Below are positions 2,066 through 10,661 of a DNA stretch of 50,443 bases, in pieces; position 1 is the first letter of the stretch; each line of letters starts with the position of its first letter. The stretch is from assembly GCA_005778355.1 (NCBI GenBank), contig SXON01000115.1:1-50443 (forward strand), given 5' to 3'. The translations under genes and the position numbers were made by a program. This DNA comes from Pseudomonadota bacterium. GTDB lineage: Bacteria; Myxococcota_A; UBA796; SXON01. The notes beneath the pieces are model-generated. The model was not told the DNA's origin and ran no database searches. It saw only the letters and a program-made list of their open reading frames with translations.

Positions 2066-3025
2066 ATGCCCCGCCCTCCCCGGCTTGATTACAAAGGTGC
2101 AAGGCACCACGTCATGAATCGCGGCGCTCGTCACGAGCCGATTTTCGTCGACGACCAGACCTGCGCCCTCTTCCTCGGAGGTCTCGCCGAGCTTCCGGTG
2201 CGCTTCGGCGTGCGTGTCCACGGGTACGCGCTGATGCCCAATCACTACCACCTGATGCTTGAGACGCCAGAGGGGAACTTATCCCGTGCAATGAGGCATT
2301 TTCAGGCTACATTCTCGCGCGATTTCAACCGGCTTCACCCCGGTTTCGATGGTCCACTCTTCCGGGGGCGGTTTCACAACCGCCTCGTCGACGACGAGGA
2401 CTGGTGGACGCATCTCCTCGCCTACATCCACCTCAATCCGGTGGAGGCGCACCTCGTCGCGAAGGTGGACGACTCGATGTGGACCAGCCACGCCGCGTAC
2501 GCGAACCTCGGCGACACTCCGGGCTGGCTGTCGACCGGGGAGCTGCTGGCCCTGCACGGCGGCCGCGAGGCCTATCGGCACTACCTCTGGGAAGTCCAGG
2601 TGGGGCGCCGTCCGGGTCCCGAAGACTTCGACGCCGAGAACTTCCGTACTCGGCGGGTGTCGTCCCCCGTCCCAGCTCGCGCGCGTGCAGCCGCACCGGC
2701 GCTCGAAGCTCACGAGGTACTCGCGACCGTCTGCGCCGCCGTGGGGGTCAAACGGGATGCCCTCCGCCGCCCGGCGCTAGGCCCCGGCGGCAACCAGGCC
2801 CGGTGGCTCGCCGCTCACTGGCTCGTCTACGCGGCCCATCTCAAGCACCGCGAGGTCGCGGACCTGCTTGAAGGCTCAGTGGTCACGGTGTCTCAATGGC
2901 TGGCGAAGGTGAGCGAGAAGCGGGGGACTGACGTGGAGTTTCGCCGCTCTTTCCTGACCATCGAGGAGAAGATCTCGGAGATGCTCGAGGGTGGAACTCT
3001 CGACGTGTCAAGAGTTAAGTCTTAA
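2066..3025 (+). CDS. REP-associated tyrosine transposase (Y1/HUH family)
   Basis: A 319-residue member of the IS200-like Y1 nuclease family. The HUH metal site is HYH at residues 60-62 inside YALMPNHYHLML. The likely nucleophile is Tyr120 in AYIHLNPVEA, the conserved block that carries the catalytic tyrosine in RAYTs. These enzymes cut single-stranded REP hairpins. The N-terminal half (to about 150) is the nuclease. The C-terminal half is an extra region with a possible helix-turn-helix around 270-300 (HREVADLLEGSVVTVSQWLAKV). All key residues are present, so it looks intact. It reads opposite to its neighbours and is flanked by 30-base inverted repeats. Its last codons run into the right-hand repeat. 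Confidence 0.92.
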   Translation: MPRPPRLDYKGARHHVMNRGARHEPIFVDDQTCALFLGGLAELPVRFGVRVHGYALMPNHYHLMLETPEGNLSRAMRHFQATFSRDFNRLHPGFDGPLFRGRFHNRLVDDEDWWTHLLAYIHLNPVEAHLVAKVDDSMWTSHAAYANLGDTPGWLSTGELLALHGGREAYRHYLWEVQVGRRPGPEDFDAENFRTRRVSSPVPARARAAAPALEAHEVLATVCAAVGVKRDALRRPALGPGGNQARWLAAHWLVYAAHLKHREVADLLEGSVVTVSQWLAKVSEKRGTDVEFRRSFLTIEEKISEMLEGGTLDVSRVKS

Positions 3026-3043
3026 CCCTTAACCTCCGGCACC
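3014..3043 (-). repeat. Right inverted repeat of the RAYT element, overlapping the tsaD stop
   Basis: Inverted partner of 2021-2050 (28 of 30 identical). It contains the perfect palindrome GTTAAG-T-CTTAAC and, on the minus strand, the last codons and TAA stop of tsaD. Confidence 0.9.
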
Positions 3044-3996
3044 GTGTGCGCGGTAACTCCGAACGGAGAGGTCGAAAAGCCCGCCTCCAGACGACGGATC
3101 GCCACGTTGGCAATCATCGCGGCATTGTCGGTACATCGCGCACGGGGGGGGAGGAACGTCCGCAGCCCGGTCGCGATCATGGCCTCGCGGATGGCGGTGT
3201 TGGCGGCGGCTCCGCCCCCGATGGCGATGCTGTCGAGGCCGGAGCGGTCGGCGGCTTCGCGCACCCGCGAGGCGAGGTAGCGAGCGACGGTGGACTGGAA
3301 GCTCGCCGCGACGTCGGCCGGCGATGCGCCGGGATTTCGCTCGAGATGCTGGCGAACAGCCGACTTCAGCCCGGAGAAGCTGACGTCGTGCGGTCGCCCC
3401 GTGGGCCGCGGCATGGGGAACGGGATGCTGTCGCGGCCCTCCCGCGCGAGTCGCTCCACCCCGGGACCGCCGGGGTAGCCAAGCCCGAGCATGCGGGCGA
3501 CCTTGTCGAAGGCCTCGCCCACCGCGTCGTCGACGGTGGTGCACAACACCTCGTACTGGCCCACGCCGCGTGCCGCGTAGAGCGTGGTGTGACCGCCGCT
3601 CACGACGAGGGACAGGAACGGGAAGGCGGGCGACGGGTCTTCGAGGAGCGCGCTCAGCAGGTGTCCCTCGAGGTGGTGGACGGCCATCAGCGGCACGCCC
3701 CAGCCGATGGCCGCGCCCTTGGCGTAGGACAGGCCGACGAGAATGGCGCCCACGAGACCAGGTCCCGATGTGACGGCCACCAGATCGGGTCGCGACACCC
3801 CCGCCTGGTGCAACGCGGCGCGCACAGTGGGCACGATCTGCTCGCAGTGAGCCCGCGAGGCCCACTCCGGCACCACGCCGCCGAAACGCGCGTGCACCGC
3901 CTGGGAGTACACCACCTCGGCCAGCACCTCCCGCGGCGCGCGGACCACGGCTGCCGCCGTGTCGTCGCAGCTCGTCTCGATGGCGAGGACGTTCAC
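3022..3996 (-). CDS. tsaD: tRNA N6-adenosine threonylcarbamoyltransferase TsaD
   Basis: TsaD transfers the threonylcarbamoyl group from TC-AMP to A37 of tRNAs decoding ANN codons, working with TsaB and TsaE. The 324-residue product starts VNVLAIETSCDDTA, has the metal-binding HHLEGHLLSALLE (HxxxH), the SGGHT nucleotide loop, GEAFDKVARMLGLGYPGGP, SFSGLK and the C-terminal CTDNAAMIANV with the third metal ligand. The GTG start at 3996 overlaps the cytochrome stop as GTGA, so translation is probably coupled. The last codons and stop lie within the right inverted repeat of the RAYT element, so the original C-terminus may have been altered by the insertion. Confidence 0.96.
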   Translation of the reverse strand: MNVLAIETSCDDTAAAVVRAPREVLAEVVYSQAVHARFGGVVPEWASRAHCEQIVPTVRAALHQAGVSRPDLVAVTSGPGLVGAILVGLSYAKGAAIGWGVPLMAVHHLEGHLLSALLEDPSPAFPFLSLVVSGGHTTLYAARGVGQYEVLCTTVDDAVGEAFDKVARMLGLGYPGGPGVERLAREGRDSIPFPMPRPTGRPHDVSFSGLKSAVRQHLERNPGASPADVAASFQSTVARYLASRVREAADRSGLDSIAIGGGAAANTAIREAMIATGLRTFLPPRARCTDNAAMIANVAIRRLEAGFSTSPFGVTAHTVPEVKG

Positions 3997-5501
3997 GGCG
4001 AGCTGTGTACCACCTTCGGGCGGTAGGTGGCCTCGTTGAAGCGGCCATCGTCCTGCTTCTTGTCGTGACACTGCGTGCACTGCGAGGCAGGCGGGTTGAC
4101 GACGAGCGGCTTCTCCGCCGGAGACAACATGTGGTCCCGACCAGCCCCGTGACACGACTCGCAGCCCACGTTGACCAGCCCGCCGAGGCTCCGGGGCTCG
4201 CCCGGCCCCTCCGGCGAGAAGGCGCCCGTGGCGTGACAACGCCAGCAGTCCGCGTCGAACTGCCGGTTGACCGCCTCGAGCGACGCCCACGCCCGCGCGT
4301 GCGGGGTGCCCTTCCACTGTGCCGTCTCCGCCGGGTGACAGCCCGCACAGGCCTCGCTCCCCACGAAGGCGCCGCTGTAGGCCGGCGGGGGCTCGCCGCT
4401 CTCCACGGCGCCCTGAGTCATGGGTGTCGCTTCGCTGAGCGTGGCCTTCACCGCTTGCACGCGCTCGTGGGTGCGCGCGTGCTCGCCCACGTCGTCGCCG
4501 AGGGCGACGAGTTCATTCTGCGCCTCGTGGGCAGGGCCTGCAGACTGGACCGTCGCGGCAAGCTCGGCGTCGAGCTTGGCCAGCCGCGTTTCCCAGAACT
4601 CACGCTGGCGCGAGAGGCGCTCCTTGGCCTTGTCGTCCGGCGCTTCGCGAATGCGCCTGTCTACCTCCGAGAGCCGCTCTCGCGCGCTGTCCACCTCGGC
4701 CGCCTTGGCGGCCCGCGTGCCCGCGTCGCGCCACGCCGTGGCACCGGGGAGGAGCTGGCCGCTCAGCACGCCCAGCATCTTGCCGCGCGAGCCGTTCGAC
4801 AGCCGCAGGCCACCGTTCGGCAACGGTTCCGGCACCCGGAAGGGAGAGGCAGCGTCGGCCACGACGATGAAGTCGATGGCAGGGACGGCAGTGGCCAACG
4901 CGAGGTCCTGCGCCTCCTCCTGGTCGGAGAGCACAATCACCACCGTGTCGCCCGCCGGGGCACTCGCGAGCGCGCGCGCCGGGTCGGACGCGCGGCAGGC
5001 TGGTACGCTCAACTCACCCGACACCACGCCGTAGATGGCGAAGTTCACGCCCCCCTTCGAGCTCTCGATCACCGTTGGCCAGGCCATGGGGGTGCCGCAC
5101 TCGAGGTTGCTCACGACGTAGGGGAGCTTGTGTTCGGTCGCGACCGCTTCCACGAAGGCACGCCCCAGAGCGAACTCTCCGCGGGCCGGCAACATCGCGT
5201 CGATGCCACCCCACGGCGTCGTCTCGGCGATCAGCCGGGCCTTGGCCTCGCGCTCTGCGCGCTCCCCTTCGGGCACCGCGCGTCCCTTGTAGAGCAGGTT
5301 GCCGGCGTCGACCACCAGCGCCTCGCCGAGCTCTTCCAGCTTCTTGTTCCTGCGGGACAGACCGCCCTGCGGGTGTCGCGGTCAGCCACAGGGCTCGATC
5401 TCGCCGGCCACGCCGCCCTGGTAGGCGAGGACGAACTTGCCGTCGCCCACCGGCGCGGTCGGCGCCAACTCGGTGGCACAAGCCAGCACGAGGCCGATCA
5501 C
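3993..5501 (-). CDS. Candidate selenoprotein: UshA-like tetraheme c-type cytochrome lipoprotein with in-frame UGA
   Basis: Read through one in-frame TGA (5384-5382, residue 40) this gives 502 residues. The N-terminus (IGLVLAC, lipobox ending at Cys8) suggests an exported lipoprotein. The region to about 250 resembles the UshA/5'-nucleotidase fold, with EPCG-U-PRHPQGGLSRR then VVDAGNLL. In this family the motif normally reads PCGC..GGL/I.RR, so the UGA replaces the second Cys. A charged, probably coiled region follows (about 265-320). Four heme motifs end the protein: CAGCH (385), CWRCH (419), CESCH (447), CTQCH (475). The GTG start overlaps the upstream stop (GTGA) with GAGG ten bases before it; the stop overlaps tsaD. 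A SECIS-like hairpin follows the UGA. Likely a periplasmic redox protein; substrate unknown. A nonsense mutation is the alternative. Confidence 0.82.
5349..5384 (-). promoter_or_regulatory. Candidate bacterial SECIS element following the UGA codon
   Basis: Counting from the base after UGA, bases 10-18 (CCGCAGGGC) pair with bases 24-33 (GUCCCGCAGG) around the five-base loop GGUCU (bases 19-23, positions 5363-5359). There are eight pairs, one A-C mismatch and one bulged A. As I recall the E. coli fdhF mRNA, the loop bases GGUCU also begin 18 bases after its UGA, and in both the loop is read as Gly-Leu. Bacterial SelB needs a G at the start of the apical loop, at about this distance, which is met here. 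Confidence 0.75.
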
Positions 5502-7069
5502 TGGGCGGGGGCCTCGGTTTCCAGCCGGTCCCGCTCTTTCTCCGCCTTGACTTCCTTGTTCTTCTCGATTCGCTCCTGCCGCTCCACCTCGCGCTCCTTC
5601 TTGCGCTCGGCGTCGATGCGGGCCTGCCGCTCCTCCTCGGCGGCCTCGCCGCGGGCGTGGCGCCCGTGTTCACGCATGAGGTCTTTGACCACGTCGACCA
5701 GTCCGTCGGTGACGATGTACACCTCGGGGTAGGCCGCGTGCTTCGCGTACCAGCGCGGCCGCTCGTGGCCCTCGTCGTCGACCGTCGGCGCAGCCGCCTT
5801 GCCGATGAGGATGGTGGCGGACTTGCCCTCCTGGTCGACCATGTCGACCTTGACGGTGGGCGCGTGGAACCCGTAGCTGGCGTCGCTCCCGCCGTCGCCG
5901 ACGAACTCGTCGCTGTCGATGTCAGCGGCCCGAGAGGCCACCCGGCGCGGCGTGGATCCGGGCACGATCACGCCGTCGTCCCACTGCCACTCCCCCACGG
6001 CCTGCCGCACCACAACGGTACCGGCGAGGTCCTTGTCGTCGGGGTCGACGGGTGCAAAAGTGGCGGAAAGCGAAACGAGCTTGTTCTGGTCCATCCGCCC
6101 GAACTGCGTGAGGCGCAGCTCCTTCGGGTCGATCATGTAGTCTTCTAGGAAGACGTCGCGCACCTTGTAGACAAAGGGCTCACCCCCGAGTCGCGCGTAG
6201 GCCAGTGGGTACTCGCCATCTTTCTCCCCGGTGGGGGCGCCGAGCTCCAGCGTGATCGGGTCGCGACCACCGGAGAAGCGGATGGTGATCCGGGCTCGAG
6301 GCGGCACTAGGCCCTGCGTCGCGGGGTCGGCCGTCTCGTCGCCGAACTGGATCGCCTTCATCGCCGAGATTCGGCCAAGGAGCCCCCTCACCTCCATGTC
6401 GCTCGCGGAGAATTGCACCGGCTCCAGCAAGTCCCAGTTGCGCTCGCCGCTACGCTGGATCTTCAGCCGTTTGCCGCCCGGCAGCTCCGCCTCGAGCCCA
6501 TCGACGTCTTTGCTGTCGAAGCTCGCGAAGCGCCGTTCACGAAATTCGGAGAGAGAAAGGGAGTAGTAGTCGACCGCCGACTTCTTGACCGTGTAGATCA
6601 CGTCGTCTTGCTTGCGACGGATGTAGAAGCTCACGCCGGACGGGTTGGGGTCGCCCGCGTAGAACTCGCGGATGCTCCCGTCGCGCATCGTGAGCTTGAC
6701 ATACACGGCGCTCTCGCCGAGCCCGTAGAGCGCGGGCTCGCCGGGGTCGTCGACCACGATGGCGCGCGACACGAGGTCGTGAAGCTGGTGCTTCACCCGG
6801 TTGACCATCTGGCGGCTGGCGCGCATGTCGGTGCCCTCGATCCACCAGGAGTCCGGCTTCTCCACCAGCGTGATGGTGCCGTCTGCCCGCGTGACGTCGA
6901 CGCGCACGAGGTCGGCCTTCTCGAAGGCGAACAACTTCACGCCTTCCTCCGCCTTCATGAGCTCCTTGCGCTCCTTGGGCGTGAGCTCCTTTGGCTTGAG
7001 CCCGACGTACGCCCCGACGAGAAGGCCCAGCGCCACCAGCGCGATGATCGTCCCCCGGAATTGCTTCAA
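5498..7069 (-). CDS. DUF4340-domain membrane-anchored protein
   Basis: A 523-residue protein with one N-terminal membrane helix (about residues 5-22, RGTIIALVALGLLVGAYVGL) and a large extracytoplasmic part. It resembles DUF4340 proteins, which typically sit beside GldG-like ABC genes. Repeated beta-rich units appear (for example SWWIEGTDMRASRQMVNRV, then YTVKKSAVDYY). The last 70 residues are a highly charged Glu/Lys/Arg region, probably a long helix. The TTG start at 7069 overlaps the GldG stop (TTGA), with GGAGG five bases upstream. Its own stop overlaps the next start as GTGA. The biochemical role is unknown; by context it works with the ABC system. Confidence 0.85.
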   Translation of the reverse strand: MKQFRGTIIALVALGLLVGAYVGLKPKELTPKERKELMKAEEGVKLFAFEKADLVRVDVTRADGTITLVEKPDSWWIEGTDMRASRQMVNRVKHQLHDLVSRAIVVDDPGEPALYGLGESAVYVKLTMRDGSIREFYAGDPNPSGVSFYIRRKQDDVIYTVKKSAVDYYSLSLSEFRERRFASFDSKDVDGLEAELPGGKRLKIQRSGERNWDLLEPVQFSASDMEVRGLLGRISAMKAIQFGDETADPATQGLVPPRARITIRFSGGRDPITLELGAPTGEKDGEYPLAYARLGGEPFVYKVRDVFLEDYMIDPKELRLTQFGRMDQNKLVSLSATFAPVDPDDKDLAGTVVVRQAVGEWQWDDGVIVPGSTPRRVASRAADIDSDEFVGDGGSDASYGFHAPTVKVDMVDQEGKSATILIGKAAAPTVDDEGHERPRWYAKHAAYPEVYIVTDGLVDVVKDLMREHGRHARGEAAEEERQARIDAERKKEREVERQERIEKNKEVKAEKERDRLETEAPAQ

Positions 7070-8520
7070 CGGCCCCTCCGCGATGCCCACACGCCCAGTC
7101 CGAGCAAGACCACGAGGATCGGCCCCATGCCCAGGGCTAGGAAGCGAATCTGCTCGCTGTCCTCGGCGGTCAGCGCGAGTCGCCGAACGCTGGCCGGTCG
7201 GCCGACCACGCTGATCCGGCCCTCGTCGCCCACGAGCCAACGCACCGCGTTGAGCGCGAAGCTGGCGTTGCCTGGTCCCTCGGCGAGCAGGGTGTTGGTG
7301 AAGACGTCGGCGTCGCCCACCACCAGCACCCGCGTGCCCTTCTTCTTCACGAGACCCGAGCCAGGAGACACGTCGAGCGCCACCGCCATTTGCGCGGGGC
7401 CCTCGCCGTCGACGCCCGGCTCGTAGAGGCCCTGGCCGTTCTTCACTTCGCCGCCGCGGTCGATCCATCCGTCGCGACTCGTTTCGAGCACGATGCTGGA
7501 GCGGACACCCTCGATGGGCGGGACCGCCGCCTGGATCGGGGCCACCCCCGCCACCACCGTCACGAGGCTGTCTTCCGACAGGTCTTTGGTGATGGGGTGC
7601 GACTTGTACCGGGGAACCGGCCGATCCGGGTAGGGGAAGACGAGGAGTTTGTCGAGCACGCGGCCGCTCGGAACCACCACGCCGAGTCGCGACAACAGCG
7701 ACGGCACGGGAGACTCGGGATCGACCGCGAGCAAGACGGGGCCGCCGGTGGACAGGTAGGCGAGGAGAAGGTCTTCTTCGAGCGCGGGAATCGCGAACTT
7801 CGGGCGCAAGACCAGGACCGCCGCTGCGTCGTCGGGCACGCGGGGGACCGGCATGTCGCGCTGGCGCACCAGGTCGAGTCGCTTCAGCTCGTAGTCGTCC
7901 TGGTCGAGTGCCCCGGCAAGGTCGGAGAGGCCACCGGGCTCGTGACTCTCGGGGTCGAGCTCGCCGTGCCCGACCAGCGCGTAGACCACCCGCCGGTTGT
8001 CGGCCATCAGCTGCGCGATGGCCCGGTTGACGGCCGCCTCTCCGGTGAACTCGAGGTGACGCTCCTCGCCCTTGCCCACGCGCTTGAACAGCTCGCGGTC
8101 CTTGAGATCGACGCGACTCTCGCCGCGCTGCACCACGACCGCCCCGTACTCGGTGACGCCGAGCTTCTCGGCCGTGAGCCGATCGCGGTCGAAGTCGACG
8201 AACTCCACCTCGACCACCTGCGAGGCGTAGTCGAGCTCGCCGAGCAGGTCGCGCAGCGCGCGGTCCTTGAAGTAGGCCTCTTTCTTCCCGGCCTGGGCCG
8301 AGAACGCGGTGACCCTTACCGCCTCGCCGGCCTGATCGAGCAGGGCCAGCTTGGTGCGCGTGTCGTCGAGGAGGATGGAGCCTTGGTCGGCGCTCAGATC
8401 GACGCGGACTCGGTGAAGGTCGACGATGGCGTAGCCCACGCACGCCGCCGCGATGGCGAGCACCGAGACGAGGAGCGCGTTGCTGCCCGCCGCGAGACGG
8501 CGCTTGGACTGGTTGCTCAC
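7066..8520 (-). CDS. GldG-like ABC-associated membrane protein
   Basis: This 484-residue protein has an N-terminal membrane helix (about 11-33), a long periplasmic-type region with a GldG/IFT52-like fold (VVYALVGHGELDP, LVLRPKFAIPALEEDLLLAYL, VLLAVDPESPVPSLLSRLGV), and a C-terminal helix (FLALGMGPILVVLLGLGVW). In Bacteroidetes GldA, GldF and GldG are linked to gliding; in proteobacteria homologous sets are of unknown function. The GTG start at 8520 overlaps the permease stop as GTGA, and its own stop overlaps the DUF4340 start. The tight coupling argues that all four proteins form one complex. Confidence 0.88.
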   Translation of the reverse strand: MSNQSKRRLAAGSNALLVSVLAIAAACVGYAIVDLHRVRVDLSADQGSILLDDTRTKLALLDQAGEAVRVTAFSAQAGKKEAYFKDRALRDLLGELDYASQVVEVEFVDFDRDRLTAEKLGVTEYGAVVVQRGESRVDLKDRELFKRVGKGEERHLEFTGEAAVNRAIAQLMADNRRVVYALVGHGELDPESHEPGGLSDLAGALDQDDYELKRLDLVRQRDMPVPRVPDDAAAVLVLRPKFAIPALEEDLLLAYLSTGGPVLLAVDPESPVPSLLSRLGVVVPSGRVLDKLLVFPYPDRPVPRYKSHPITKDLSEDSLVTVVAGVAPIQAAVPPIEGVRSSIVLETSRDGWIDRGGEVKNGQGLYEPGVDGEGPAQMAVALDVSPGSGLVKKKGTRVLVVGDADVFTNTLLAEGPGNASFALNAVRWLVGDEGRISVVGRPASVRRLALTAEDSEQIRFLALGMGPILVVLLGLGVWASRRGR

Positions 8521-9227
8521 CGCCACCGGCGTGACTCCAGCGAGCGGAAGGTGAGGAACAAGAAACACCCGGCGAAGGCGAGGAAGTAGAACACGTCGGC
8601 GCTATCGATCACGCCCCGGTTGAAGCTCTCGAGATGGCTCAGCACGCCGAAGGGCTGGATCTTCGCCGCCAGTTCGTCTCCCACCAGGGCCTCGGCGCGG
8701 CCGACGAGCCAGAAGGGCATCAGCATGACGATGCCGATGAGGCCTGCGGCGAGCTGATCGTCGACGAGCGACGACGAGAAGAGTCCCGCCGCGCAGAAGG
8801 CCGCCGCCACCCCGAAGAGCCCGAGGTAGGTGGTGAGCACCACGCCCCAGTCAGGGTCGCCGTAGTAGGCAAGGATCAAAGGGAGGATCAGCGTGCCGAG
8901 AAACATCAGCAGGCAGAGGGTGAGCGAGGCCAGCCACTTCCCCAGCACCAGTGCCATCGGCGACACCGGCGAGGTGAGCAACATCTCGAGCGTGCCCTGG
9001 CGTCGCTCCTCGGCGAAGTGGCGCATCGTGAGCATCGGCAACACGAAGAGCTCGGCGATCGCGAGATTGCTCGCCAGGACGCGCATTGACGCCTCGCCGG
9101 TGAGCGTGATGCCTAGGTAGAAGAAGAGCCCCGCGAGGAACATGAAGACGGCGAGGAAGGCGTACGCGGTGGGGTTGACCGCGTAGACCCGCAGCTCTTT
9201 CTTCCAGATGGTGAGCACGCCTCTCAT
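8517..9227 (-). CDS. ABC-2 type transporter permease, GldF-like
   Basis: A 236-residue inner-membrane permease. It begins MRGVLTIWKKELRVY, the cytosolic coupling start typical of ABC-2 permeases, then shows about six hydrophobic helices (AYAFLAVFMFLAGLFFYLG; LTLCLLMFLGTLILPLILAYY; LAAGLIGIVMLMPFWLVG; FYFLAFAGCFLFL). The family segment RHFAEERRQGTLEMLLTSPV is present. The ATG at 9227 overlaps the ATPase stop as ATGA. It should pair with the ATPase just upstream. The substrate is not known. Confidence 0.93.
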   Translation of the reverse strand: MRGVLTIWKKELRVYAVNPTAYAFLAVFMFLAGLFFYLGITLTGEASMRVLASNLAIAELFVLPMLTMRHFAEERRQGTLEMLLTSPVSPMALVLGKWLASLTLCLLMFLGTLILPLILAYYGDPDWGVVLTTYLGLFGVAAAFCAAGLFSSSLVDDQLAAGLIGIVMLMPFWLVGRAEALVGDELAAKIQPFGVLSHLESFNRGVIDSADVFYFLAFAGCFLFLTFRSLESRRWR

Positions 9228-10150
9228 GCGACGCCCTCGCGGCCGACAATATCGATGAAGGCTTCCTCGAGTGAGGGAAGCCGGGACTCCAGCGCGCGCA
9301 GGCGGAACTCGCCAGCGGCCGCACGAGCCGCGAGCATCTCGCGAGGGTCGACCGGCGCCCGCACTCGAAACGCCGCCCAGCCGTCGACCGGCCCGACAGG
9401 CTCCACCAGTTCCACGCCCGGCAAGCTGCCGAGCCGGGGGCCGTCGATGCCCTGCACCTCGACATAGGTGTACGCCCCGCCGCGAGCCCTGCCGCGAATG
9501 CTGGCGATGTTGCCCTCGGCCACGAGGCGTCCCTTGTTGATCACCACGGCGCGTGGGCACACCGCCTCCACCTCGGAGAGGATGTGGGTGGAAAGGATCA
9601 CCGTGTGCGATCCAGCCAGCTCCTTGATGAGGTCGCGGATGCCCACCACCTGCGCGGGGTCGAGGCCGCTGGTGGGCTCGTCGAGGATGAGCCCCGGGGG
9701 GTCGTGCACGATGGCCTGGGCGAGGCCGACGCGTTGGCGGTAGCCCTTCGACAGGGAGCCTAGGAGGCGTTTCTCCCATCCACGCAAGCCGACGCGCTCC
9801 ATCACCTCGCCGGTCCGGGAGGCCCGTCGCGGCCGCTCCACGCCGCGGAGCTCGGCGCAGAACAGCAGATAGTCGCCCACCGTGAGCTCTGGGTAGAGTG
9901 GCGGCGTCTCCGGCAGGTAGCCCACCCGCGAACGCACGGCGTAGGGGTCGTCGAACACGTCGAAGCCCGCCACCTTCACCTCGCCGGACGTGGCCGGGAT
10001 GAAGCCGGTGAGGATCCGCATGGTCGTGGTCTTGCCGGCGCCGTTGGGCCCGAGGAAACCCACCACCTCGCCTCGCTGCACCTCGAAGCTCACGCCGCTC
10101 ACCGCCACGCGGGGGCCCCAGGCCTTGTGCAGGTCAACGACAGAGATCAT
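9224..10150 (-). CDS. ABC transporter ATP-binding protein, GldA-like
   Basis: A 308-residue ATPase that would power the neighbouring ABC-2 permease. Walker A is GPNGAGKT (34-41), the signature is LSKGYRQR (133-140), and Walker B is LILDEPT (154-160), followed by SGLDPAQ and the switch histidine in LSTHIL. A C-terminal regulatory region of about 90 residues (VEVQGIDGPRL...) is typical of this subfamily. I chose the ATG at 10150 because MISVVDLHKAWG aligns with family starts. It is first in the gene train leading to the cytochrome and tsaD. A promoter should lie in the 25 bases before the divergent gene at 10176 or inside that gene. Confidence 0.96.
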   Translation of the reverse strand: MISVVDLHKAWGPRVAVSGVSFEVQRGEVVGFLGPNGAGKTTTMRILTGFIPATSGEVKVAGFDVFDDPYAVRSRVGYLPETPPLYPELTVGDYLLFCAELRGVERPRRASRTGEVMERVGLRGWEKRLLGSLSKGYRQRVGLAQAIVHDPPGLILDEPTSGLDPAQVVGIRDLIKELAGSHTVILSTHILSEVEAVCPRAVVINKGRLVAEGNIASIRGRARGGAYTYVEVQGIDGPRLGSLPGVELVEPVGPVDGWAAFRVRAPVDPREMLAARAAAGEFRLRALESRLPSLEEAFIDIVGREGVA

Positions 10151-10175
10151 GGCCGGCGCGGTTAACCGGTCCCTC

Positions 10176-10661
10176 ATGTGGTGGATGGCGCTCACGACGG
10201 CGCTCGCCGATCCGGTCGAACGGGTGGTCGTTTTCGCCGGCGACCGCATCGTCACCCAGACGGACGTGGCGTTTGAGGCCTTCTTCTCGCCTCGTGATCT
10301 CAGCCCCGTCCCCGCGTTTGAGGACGAGAGCTACACGGTGGAAGACAAGCTGGTCGACATCGCCCTCGCTCGCGCCCTCGCCGGCGACCTCGTGATCTTC
10401 CGCCCTTCCGACGCCGAGGTTCGAGCGCGACGCGACGCGTTCCTCGCCAGCTTCGCCGAGCCCGAGGAAGGGCGGCGTCGCCTCGCGGACTGGGGCTTCG
10501 ACGGCGAGGAGTTCCTTGGTTTCCTGTACTCGCGAATGGTGGCGGAGCGCTGCGTGCTCCGAAGCGTGGTGGCGAGCACCTCGGGTGCCGACTGGCCCGA
10601 GCGTTACCAGGCGTGGAGGTCGGAGCTCCGTCGCCGCGCCCCGGTGCGGCGGGCGCCGTGA
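10176..10661 (+). CDS. Small exported SurA-like chaperone-domain protein
   Basis: A 161-residue protein beginning with a short hydrophobic leader (MWWMALTTALA, likely cut before DP). The mature start VERVVVFAGDRIVTQTDVAFEA resembles the N-terminal region of SurA/parvulin chaperones (VNGxVIxxSDV). The next 100 residues look helical, with LADWGFDGEEFLGFLYSRMVAE like the SurA helical core. No PPIase domain is present, so it is at most the chaperone part. The leader has no positive charge, which is unusual. It overlaps rimI by four bases (GTGA). Role in outer-membrane protein handling is inference. Confidence 0.65.
   Translation: MWWMALTTALADPVERVVVFAGDRIVTQTDVAFEAFFSPRDLSPVPAFEDESYTVEDKLVDIALARALAGDLVIFRPSDAEVRARRDAFLASFAEPEEGRRRLADWGFDGEEFLGFLYSRMVAERCVLRSVVASTSGADWPERYQAWRSELRRRAPVRRAP

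Follow-up and report, generated by a model that had tools for sequence, protein, structure and literature searches.

A probable selenocysteine codon in the CxU motif of an UshA-like tetraheme protein from a Myxococcota_A genome

The window analysed here is the whole 50,443-nucleotide stretch of contig SXON01000115.1 (assembly GCA_005778355.1), which belongs to a bacterium of the GTDB lineage Bacteria; Myxococcota_A; UBA796; SXON01. On its minus strand lies a gene for an UshA-like tetraheme protein in which an in-frame UGA very probably encodes selenocysteine (Sec) at a position held by cysteine (Cys) in relatives from other classes. The gene and its features, including a hairpin resembling a selenocysteine insertion sequence (SECIS), are the following.

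3993–5501, minus strand: probable UshA-like PCGU tetraheme selenoprotein gene, with a GTG start and a TGA stop at 3993–3995 (family model NF041198, 2.2e-74)
5478–5480, minus strand: predicted lipobox Cys, residue 8 (MIGLVLAC), as read from the sequence
5382–5393, minus strand: PCGU motif, CCC TGT GGC TGA, aligned with the PCGC of other-class relatives
5382–5384, minus strand: in-frame TGA, likely Sec, residue 40 from the GTG (frame reading and relatives)
5352–5370, minus strand: SECIS-like hairpin just 3′ of the TGA, GC.GGGC / GUCC.GC, with the loop GGUCU at 5359–5363 (stem comparison and covariance model)
4724–5432, ends approximate, minus strand: domain predicted to have a 5′-nucleotidase/SoxB metallophosphoesterase fold (profile and structure comparison)
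4335–4349, minus strand: heme motif 1, CAGCH (sequence and alignment, as for the next three)
4233–4247, minus strand: heme motif 2, CWRCH
4149–4163, minus strand: heme motif 3, CESCH
4065–4079, minus strand: heme motif 4, CTQCH

A single frame leads from GTG 5501 to the stop at 3995–3993, and its sole break is the TGA at 5384–5382. The codons at the site read GAG CCC TGT GGC TGA CCG and the surrounding protein is VAGEIEPCG-U-PRHPQGGLSRR, where the UGA takes the place of the second Cys in EPCG[C/U], with four CxxCH motifs C-terminal to it. Frame reading thus confirms an earlier note, made from the DNA letters alone, which had described an open frame broken only by a UGA at the second Cys of PCGC and followed by four CxxCH sites. 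Packing is tight: the GTG overlaps the stop of the upstream DUF4340 gene as GTGA, and the stop overlaps the GTG of tsaD. With seven residues before the Cys (MIGLVLA-C), the predicted lipoprotein signal peptide (5478–5501) is unusually short, and those of some near relatives in the genus look comparably short. Downstream of the TGA, an open reading frame (ORF) of 440 amino acids starts at GTG 5315; gene callers that take UGA as a stop would shorten such genes.

Relatives were surveyed across the phylum by a profile search with NF041198 over 377 genomes. Matches at 1e-20 were found in 324 of them, the weak ones including paralogs and true nucleotidases, and the curated cut-off was passed by 22 genomes, with 19 Sec forms and three Cys forms. 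The full-length matches listed reach down to about E 5e-63. In the class of the window, each of the 50 full-length matches listed (window gene included) has exactly one in-frame TGA; among the matches listed, none from other classes has any. In 49 of 49 genes scored (the window gene and 48 others), this TGA supplies the U of PCGU, and L022, whose sequence contains some N, also reads PCGU by eye. All 21 relatives fetched from outside the class read PCGC (PCG-TGC in 18, PCG-TGT in three), in agreement with the PCGC family described in the earlier note, and the alignment of homologs that it had proposed as a check gave the expected pattern: UGA recurs in relatives, Cys stands elsewhere, and CxC/U is invariant in all 39 aligned proteins (alignment A2; it and the model hold 28 of the 49 Sec and 11 of the 21 Cys proteins, picked for spread).

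Such recurrence bears directly on the view that the UGA is a real stop, be it in a pseudogene, through an assembly error or with a restart at GTG 5315, so that no full-length protein is made. The 440-residue ORF, the expected call of an automatic annotation, speaks for it; against it stand the TGA shared by the 50 listed class matches with motif and hemes kept, fixed synonymous sites behind the TGA and the Sec machinery of the genome, and we regard it as extremely improbable. A read error is unlikely, since the same TGA stands in two near relatives on contigs VGRQ01000035.1 and VGRE01000027.1 (identities 87% and 88%; probably the same contigs as L064 and L056 of the class set). Chance is excluded by the single TGA in each of the 50 listed class matches. 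Stop codon, pseudogene and sequencing error were accordingly rejected on the strength of the 50 listed matches.

A tree built from 92 proteins, 49 with Sec and 43 with Cys, places all its Sec forms on one side of one branch (Shimodaira–Hasegawa-like approximate likelihood ratio test, SH-aLRT, 97), which requires one Sec/Cys change of state; the tree was made by a quick method, is unrooted and does not give the direction of change. Of the 19 Sec genes that pass the NF041198 cut-off, 18 share the Sec branch with the window gene; the nineteenth (L022) is outside the tree set. A named near-homolog search, made with patterns carrying Cys for Sec, leans to Cys forms and is excluded from the Sec/Cys ratio; 21 of its 30 loci (L086–L115, besides the two near relatives) entered the tree. 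The tree does not include L022, for which no motif was scored, L084 and L085, which were set aside by choice, L099, L103, L113 and L115, which have few hemes, and, though reading PCGC, L088, L095, L110, L112 and L114. On this sequence evidence, the switch between Sec and Cys appears to have occurred once, at class level.

A search of 21 further genomes of the order with weak or absent matches yielded eight more Sec forms (L126, L128, L131, L132, L133, L134, L143 and L144) and, in five genomes, a separate Cys paralog reading PCGCPT.P.GGF (L125, L127, L136, L137 and L148); L125 and L127 are full-length class matches without TGA, weaker than the 50 listed. A Sec form is therefore present in 58 of the 71 class genomes surveyed (50 and the eight found later), and a small fragment with one TGA only in two (G302, G310); none was seen in the remaining 11, many of them fragmented and some with other paralogs. 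The window genome has its own Cys paralog (L118, G000:C2, 74906-76198; EPCGCPTTPYGGF; four hemes, 515 amino acids), which lies outside the Sec clade and shares at most 48% identity with other Cys forms in the tree. It is the nearest relation of a PCGC tetraheme protein (L097, CAMAWH010000005.1) in a record titled Klebsiella pneumoniae, a title probably wrong for this metagenome-assembled genome.

The genome, 85% complete at 6.6 Mb, contains every component of the Sec machinery that the earlier note had suggested looking for, each over its cut-off: tRNA-Sec with a UCA anticodon (61.8 bits), selA (468.8 bits), selB (293.5 bits) and selD (392 bits, with one in-frame TGA). That selD (L012, G000:C38, 10260-11177) reads GGGUGCKL and is a second likely selenoprotein. 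Weaker machinery matches occur in up to 14 of 14 control genomes, and therefore only the cut-off counts; it was passed by 5, 1, 2 and 2 of them for tRNA-Sec, selA, selB and selD. A selA match was found in 43 of 49 Sec genomes (the window genome not counted) versus 10 of 21 Cys genomes, 42 and 10 of these being over the cut-off, and selB was over the cut-off in 43 and 10, respectively. Either gene is present in 48 of 49 Sec genomes, the exception (G317) being in about 1,020 contigs, versus 11 of 21 Cys genomes; half of the latter thus have Sec machinery yet use Cys here.

Behind the TGA, the nucleotides are constrained beyond the protein sequence they encode. The sixth codon after it is GGC in 49 of 49 Sec genes and the seventh GGT in 48 of 49, whereas among Cys genes that also have Gly, all four Gly codons occur at position six and GGC prevails at position seven. 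An apical stem of four pairs can form, using one of three registers, in 49 of 49 Sec but 0 of 21 Cys genes; its loop has GGUCU in 48 of the 49 Sec genes and in none of the 21 Cys genes. The SECIS loops of Escherichia coli formate dehydrogenases carry GGUCU. A covariance model of the hairpin matches the window gene at 2.6e-12 and L022 at 6.4e-9. It recovers eight of eight held-out Sec genes, which are related to the training sequences (E 5.5e-15 to 8.5e-7), and none of six Cys paralogs. The window hairpin is its only match in the whole genome at E ≤ 0.1 (150 of 8,643 candidates scored). Because it misses the UGA of selD, the model is specific to this gene family and is no general SECIS detector.

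Reading of the UGA as another amino acid (for example Trp or Cys), through suppression or a changed code, would preserve the frame equally well by readthrough alone. Yet the conserved hairpin together with tRNA-Sec, selA and selB explains the site better, and a changed code, unlikely when the selenoprotein gene and the DUF4340 gene both end in TGA, was rejected on that ground; decoding as a residue other than Sec is very improbable. Sec at the UGA is thus strongly supported by the sequences compared.

The protein that results would combine two parts. Its C-terminal portion matches Cytochrome_C554 (PF13435) at 5.6e-14 and carries the four CxxCH motifs expected of a tetraheme cytochrome c; none of the 50 class members in the main set has fewer than four heme motifs. 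The N-terminal domain is modelled by AlphaFold2 (predicted local distance difference test score 89 for the window protein) as a metallophosphoesterase fold closely resembling 5′-nucleotidases and SoxB. The metal-ligand positions of UshA-type enzymes, which we take to be DxH, GD, GNH, H and GHxH, are all substituted in the window protein (0 of 8 kept in a profile alignment), as they are in 16 other rows of 39. The ligands of a functional UshA or 5′-nucleotidase are thus missing from the sequence, and a predicted nucleotidase fold with its metal ligands gone suggests a selenol–thiol redox protein.

The most likely reading, to which we assign a probability of about 0.7, is that the UGA is decoded as Sec by way of the predicted hairpin and that the product is a tetraheme UshA-like selenol–thiol redox unit on a predicted nucleotidase-type fold without the usual metal ligands. 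It builds on the open frame, the Sec/Cys exchange, the machinery genes, the conserved hairpin-forming sequence, the four CxxCH motifs and the eight ligand substitutions, with fold and lipoprotein signal as predictions. SelB would deliver Sec-tRNA at the hairpin, and the exported protein may be lipid-anchored outside the cytoplasmic membrane. The loop behind the first strand, which binds the metals in a nucleotidase, would carry the C-G-Sec pair, and this pair could exchange electrons with the four hemes, reducing or oxidising a thiol, sulfur or selenium substrate.

Several observations weigh against this reading. The minimum-energy fold of the window gene's own 45 nucleotides is a different hairpin (−12.7 versus −7.5 kcal/mol), and folding the 49 sequences to a consensus without constraints gives yet another. 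Covariation is weak, with changes on both sides in one pair, and a control slid by −2 scores higher; it was therefore dropped as the main proof of the hairpin. Rfam gives no SECIS match and one chance match only (mascRNA, E 4.1), and the covariance model has six other weak matches (E 0.03–0.79), away from the motif, in the control loci searched. As to the hemes, the stretch fetched for three Sec forms (L143, L144 and L132) contains no heme ORF, and in L132 the first Cys is missing too, with Thr instead (EPTGU); two PCGC UshA-like ORFs lack heme motifs as well (L115, in a Bdellovibrio-titled record, and L113, in a Proteobacteria-titled one). The hairpin model still matches L143, L144 and L132, so that Sec can outlast both hemes and partner Cys. 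These three forms speak against hemes being strictly required, rule them out as an obligatory part and imply that wiring to hemes is not universal. Finally, the window protein has no Pfam metallophosphoesterase match at E 0.01, the fold therefore resting on profile and structure comparison, and some class members keep three to five of the eight ligand positions.

Such partly kept ligand sets, together with the close predicted-fold match to 5′-nucleotidases and SoxB, are what would be expected if Sec is inserted into an enzyme that is nonetheless a metal-dependent phosphoesterase or thiosulfohydrolase (UshA/SoxB-like), hemes and Sec being accessory. The passages on this family in a 2008 marine survey, which set UshA-like proteins apart from families with Cys-based redox motifs, point the same way (PMC2398784). 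The complete loss of ligands in the window protein and the 16 other rows, set against a CxC/U invariant in all 39, makes this unlikely, although it is the strongest of the alternatives.

The neighbouring genes are as follows.

9224–10255, minus strand: ATP-binding cassette (ABC) transporter ATPase gene, upstream
8517–9272, minus strand: ABC-2 type permease gene, upstream, start approximate
7066–8568, minus strand: ABC_transp_aux (GldG-like) gene, upstream
5498–7090, minus strand: DUF4340 gene, upstream, start approximate
3022–3996, minus strand: tsaD, downstream, its GTG overlapping the selenoprotein stop

The upstream set is thus ordered ATPase, permease, ABC_transp_aux, DUF4340. In the flanks fetched, which span about 2.6 kb at most, 33 of 48 Sec loci have a DUF4340 relative upstream and 34 of 48 have a same-strand tsaD relative, versus 0 of 21 Cys loci for each. 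Some of the 15 Sec loci without DUF4340 break off too early, and the others belong to different families of the class. On the plus strand, the ORF at 2066-3025, with the start DYKGARHHVMNRGARHEPIF, presumably resembles transposases associated with repetitive extragenic palindromic sequences; it has no Pfam match at 1e-5.

These neighbours bear on a further proposal, that Sec serves as a selenium or sulfur carrier or in assembly (through a persulfide, a selenide or a protein-bound intermediate, as SoxB acts with SoxY), the hemes forming a separate electron-transfer module. The heme-less Sec forms and the fold that SoxB is predicted to share are compatible with it; against it, the annotated neighbours are an ABC exporter set and tsaD, with no sox gene among them, and every one of the 50 main-set class members has its four or more heme motifs. 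A carrier role is accordingly rather improbable.

Returning to the redox unit, a broader scenario is offered tentatively, at somewhat less than even odds: the clade may have turned a secreted nucleotidase or SoxB-type enzyme into a new kind of heme-wired selenoenzyme, in which the metal site was lost, Cys-Gly-Sec took its place and a tetraheme tail feeds electrons; Cys would have changed to Sec once, at the root of the class, and Sec would outlast hemes or partner Cys. The invariant CxC/U, the four hemes and the substituted metal ligands of the window protein and its relatives point to a testable redox role, for a family to which the literature passages that name it give no function. A natural experiment is at hand in the class-wide Sec clade, the Cys relatives of other classes, the Cys paralog of the same genome and the heme-less Sec forms.

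Proteins of this kind are known. The survey of 2008 lists ‘COG0737, UshA-like’ with the motif CxU (76 selenoproteins and 92 Cys homologs), counts it among the twenty families that make up about 95% of its selenoproteins and, in the passages concerned, names UshA-like, SelD and FdhA as exceptions without conserved Cys-based redox motifs (PMC2398784); UshA-like entries are also tabulated in PMC13188914 (2026) and PMC9312934 (2022). The earlier note had proposed a likely new selenoprotein: Sec at the second Cys of PCGC is well supported, and novelty falls, because NF041198 exists and CxU was printed in 2008. What is added here is the class-level Sec/Cys switch, the SECIS-like element and the predicted nucleotidase fold without metal ligands. 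In the open-licence PMC literature, nothing was found that joins Myxococcota with selenium terms, nor anything more specific on UshA-like selenoproteins.

The closest known system is NF041198 itself (UshA_like_PCGU, ‘UshA-like (seleno)protein’, NCBIfam), with which the window protein shares the PCG[UC] motif and the C-terminal hemes over the full model (positions 21-514 of 519 aligned, heme part included) and which has both Sec and Cys members over its cut-off; the window protein, at 250.9 bits, lies under this curated cut-off of 275. In the literature passages concerned, UshA-like proteins are placed under an esterase COG and hemes are unmentioned. UshA-like family 2 (NF049981) and the ExtKL-type multiheme cytochrome (NF040886) are, in the entries seen, likewise listed as Sec proteins, UshA-like or multiheme; NF049981 differs by its CxxU motif, and the window protein matches neither of the two in NCBIfam at E 0.01. 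Compared with UshA, CD73 and SoxB, the window protein has its mapped metal-ligand positions substituted and, at E 0.01, no Pfam nucleotidase-domain match, and instead carries four CxxCH motifs and CxU. Cytochrome c554 (PF13435; PDB 1bvb) resembles the C-terminal part, which matches both the Pfam family and the structure, but the best PF13435 stretch covers residues 384-452 only, and most of the rest of the protein is nucleotidase-like.
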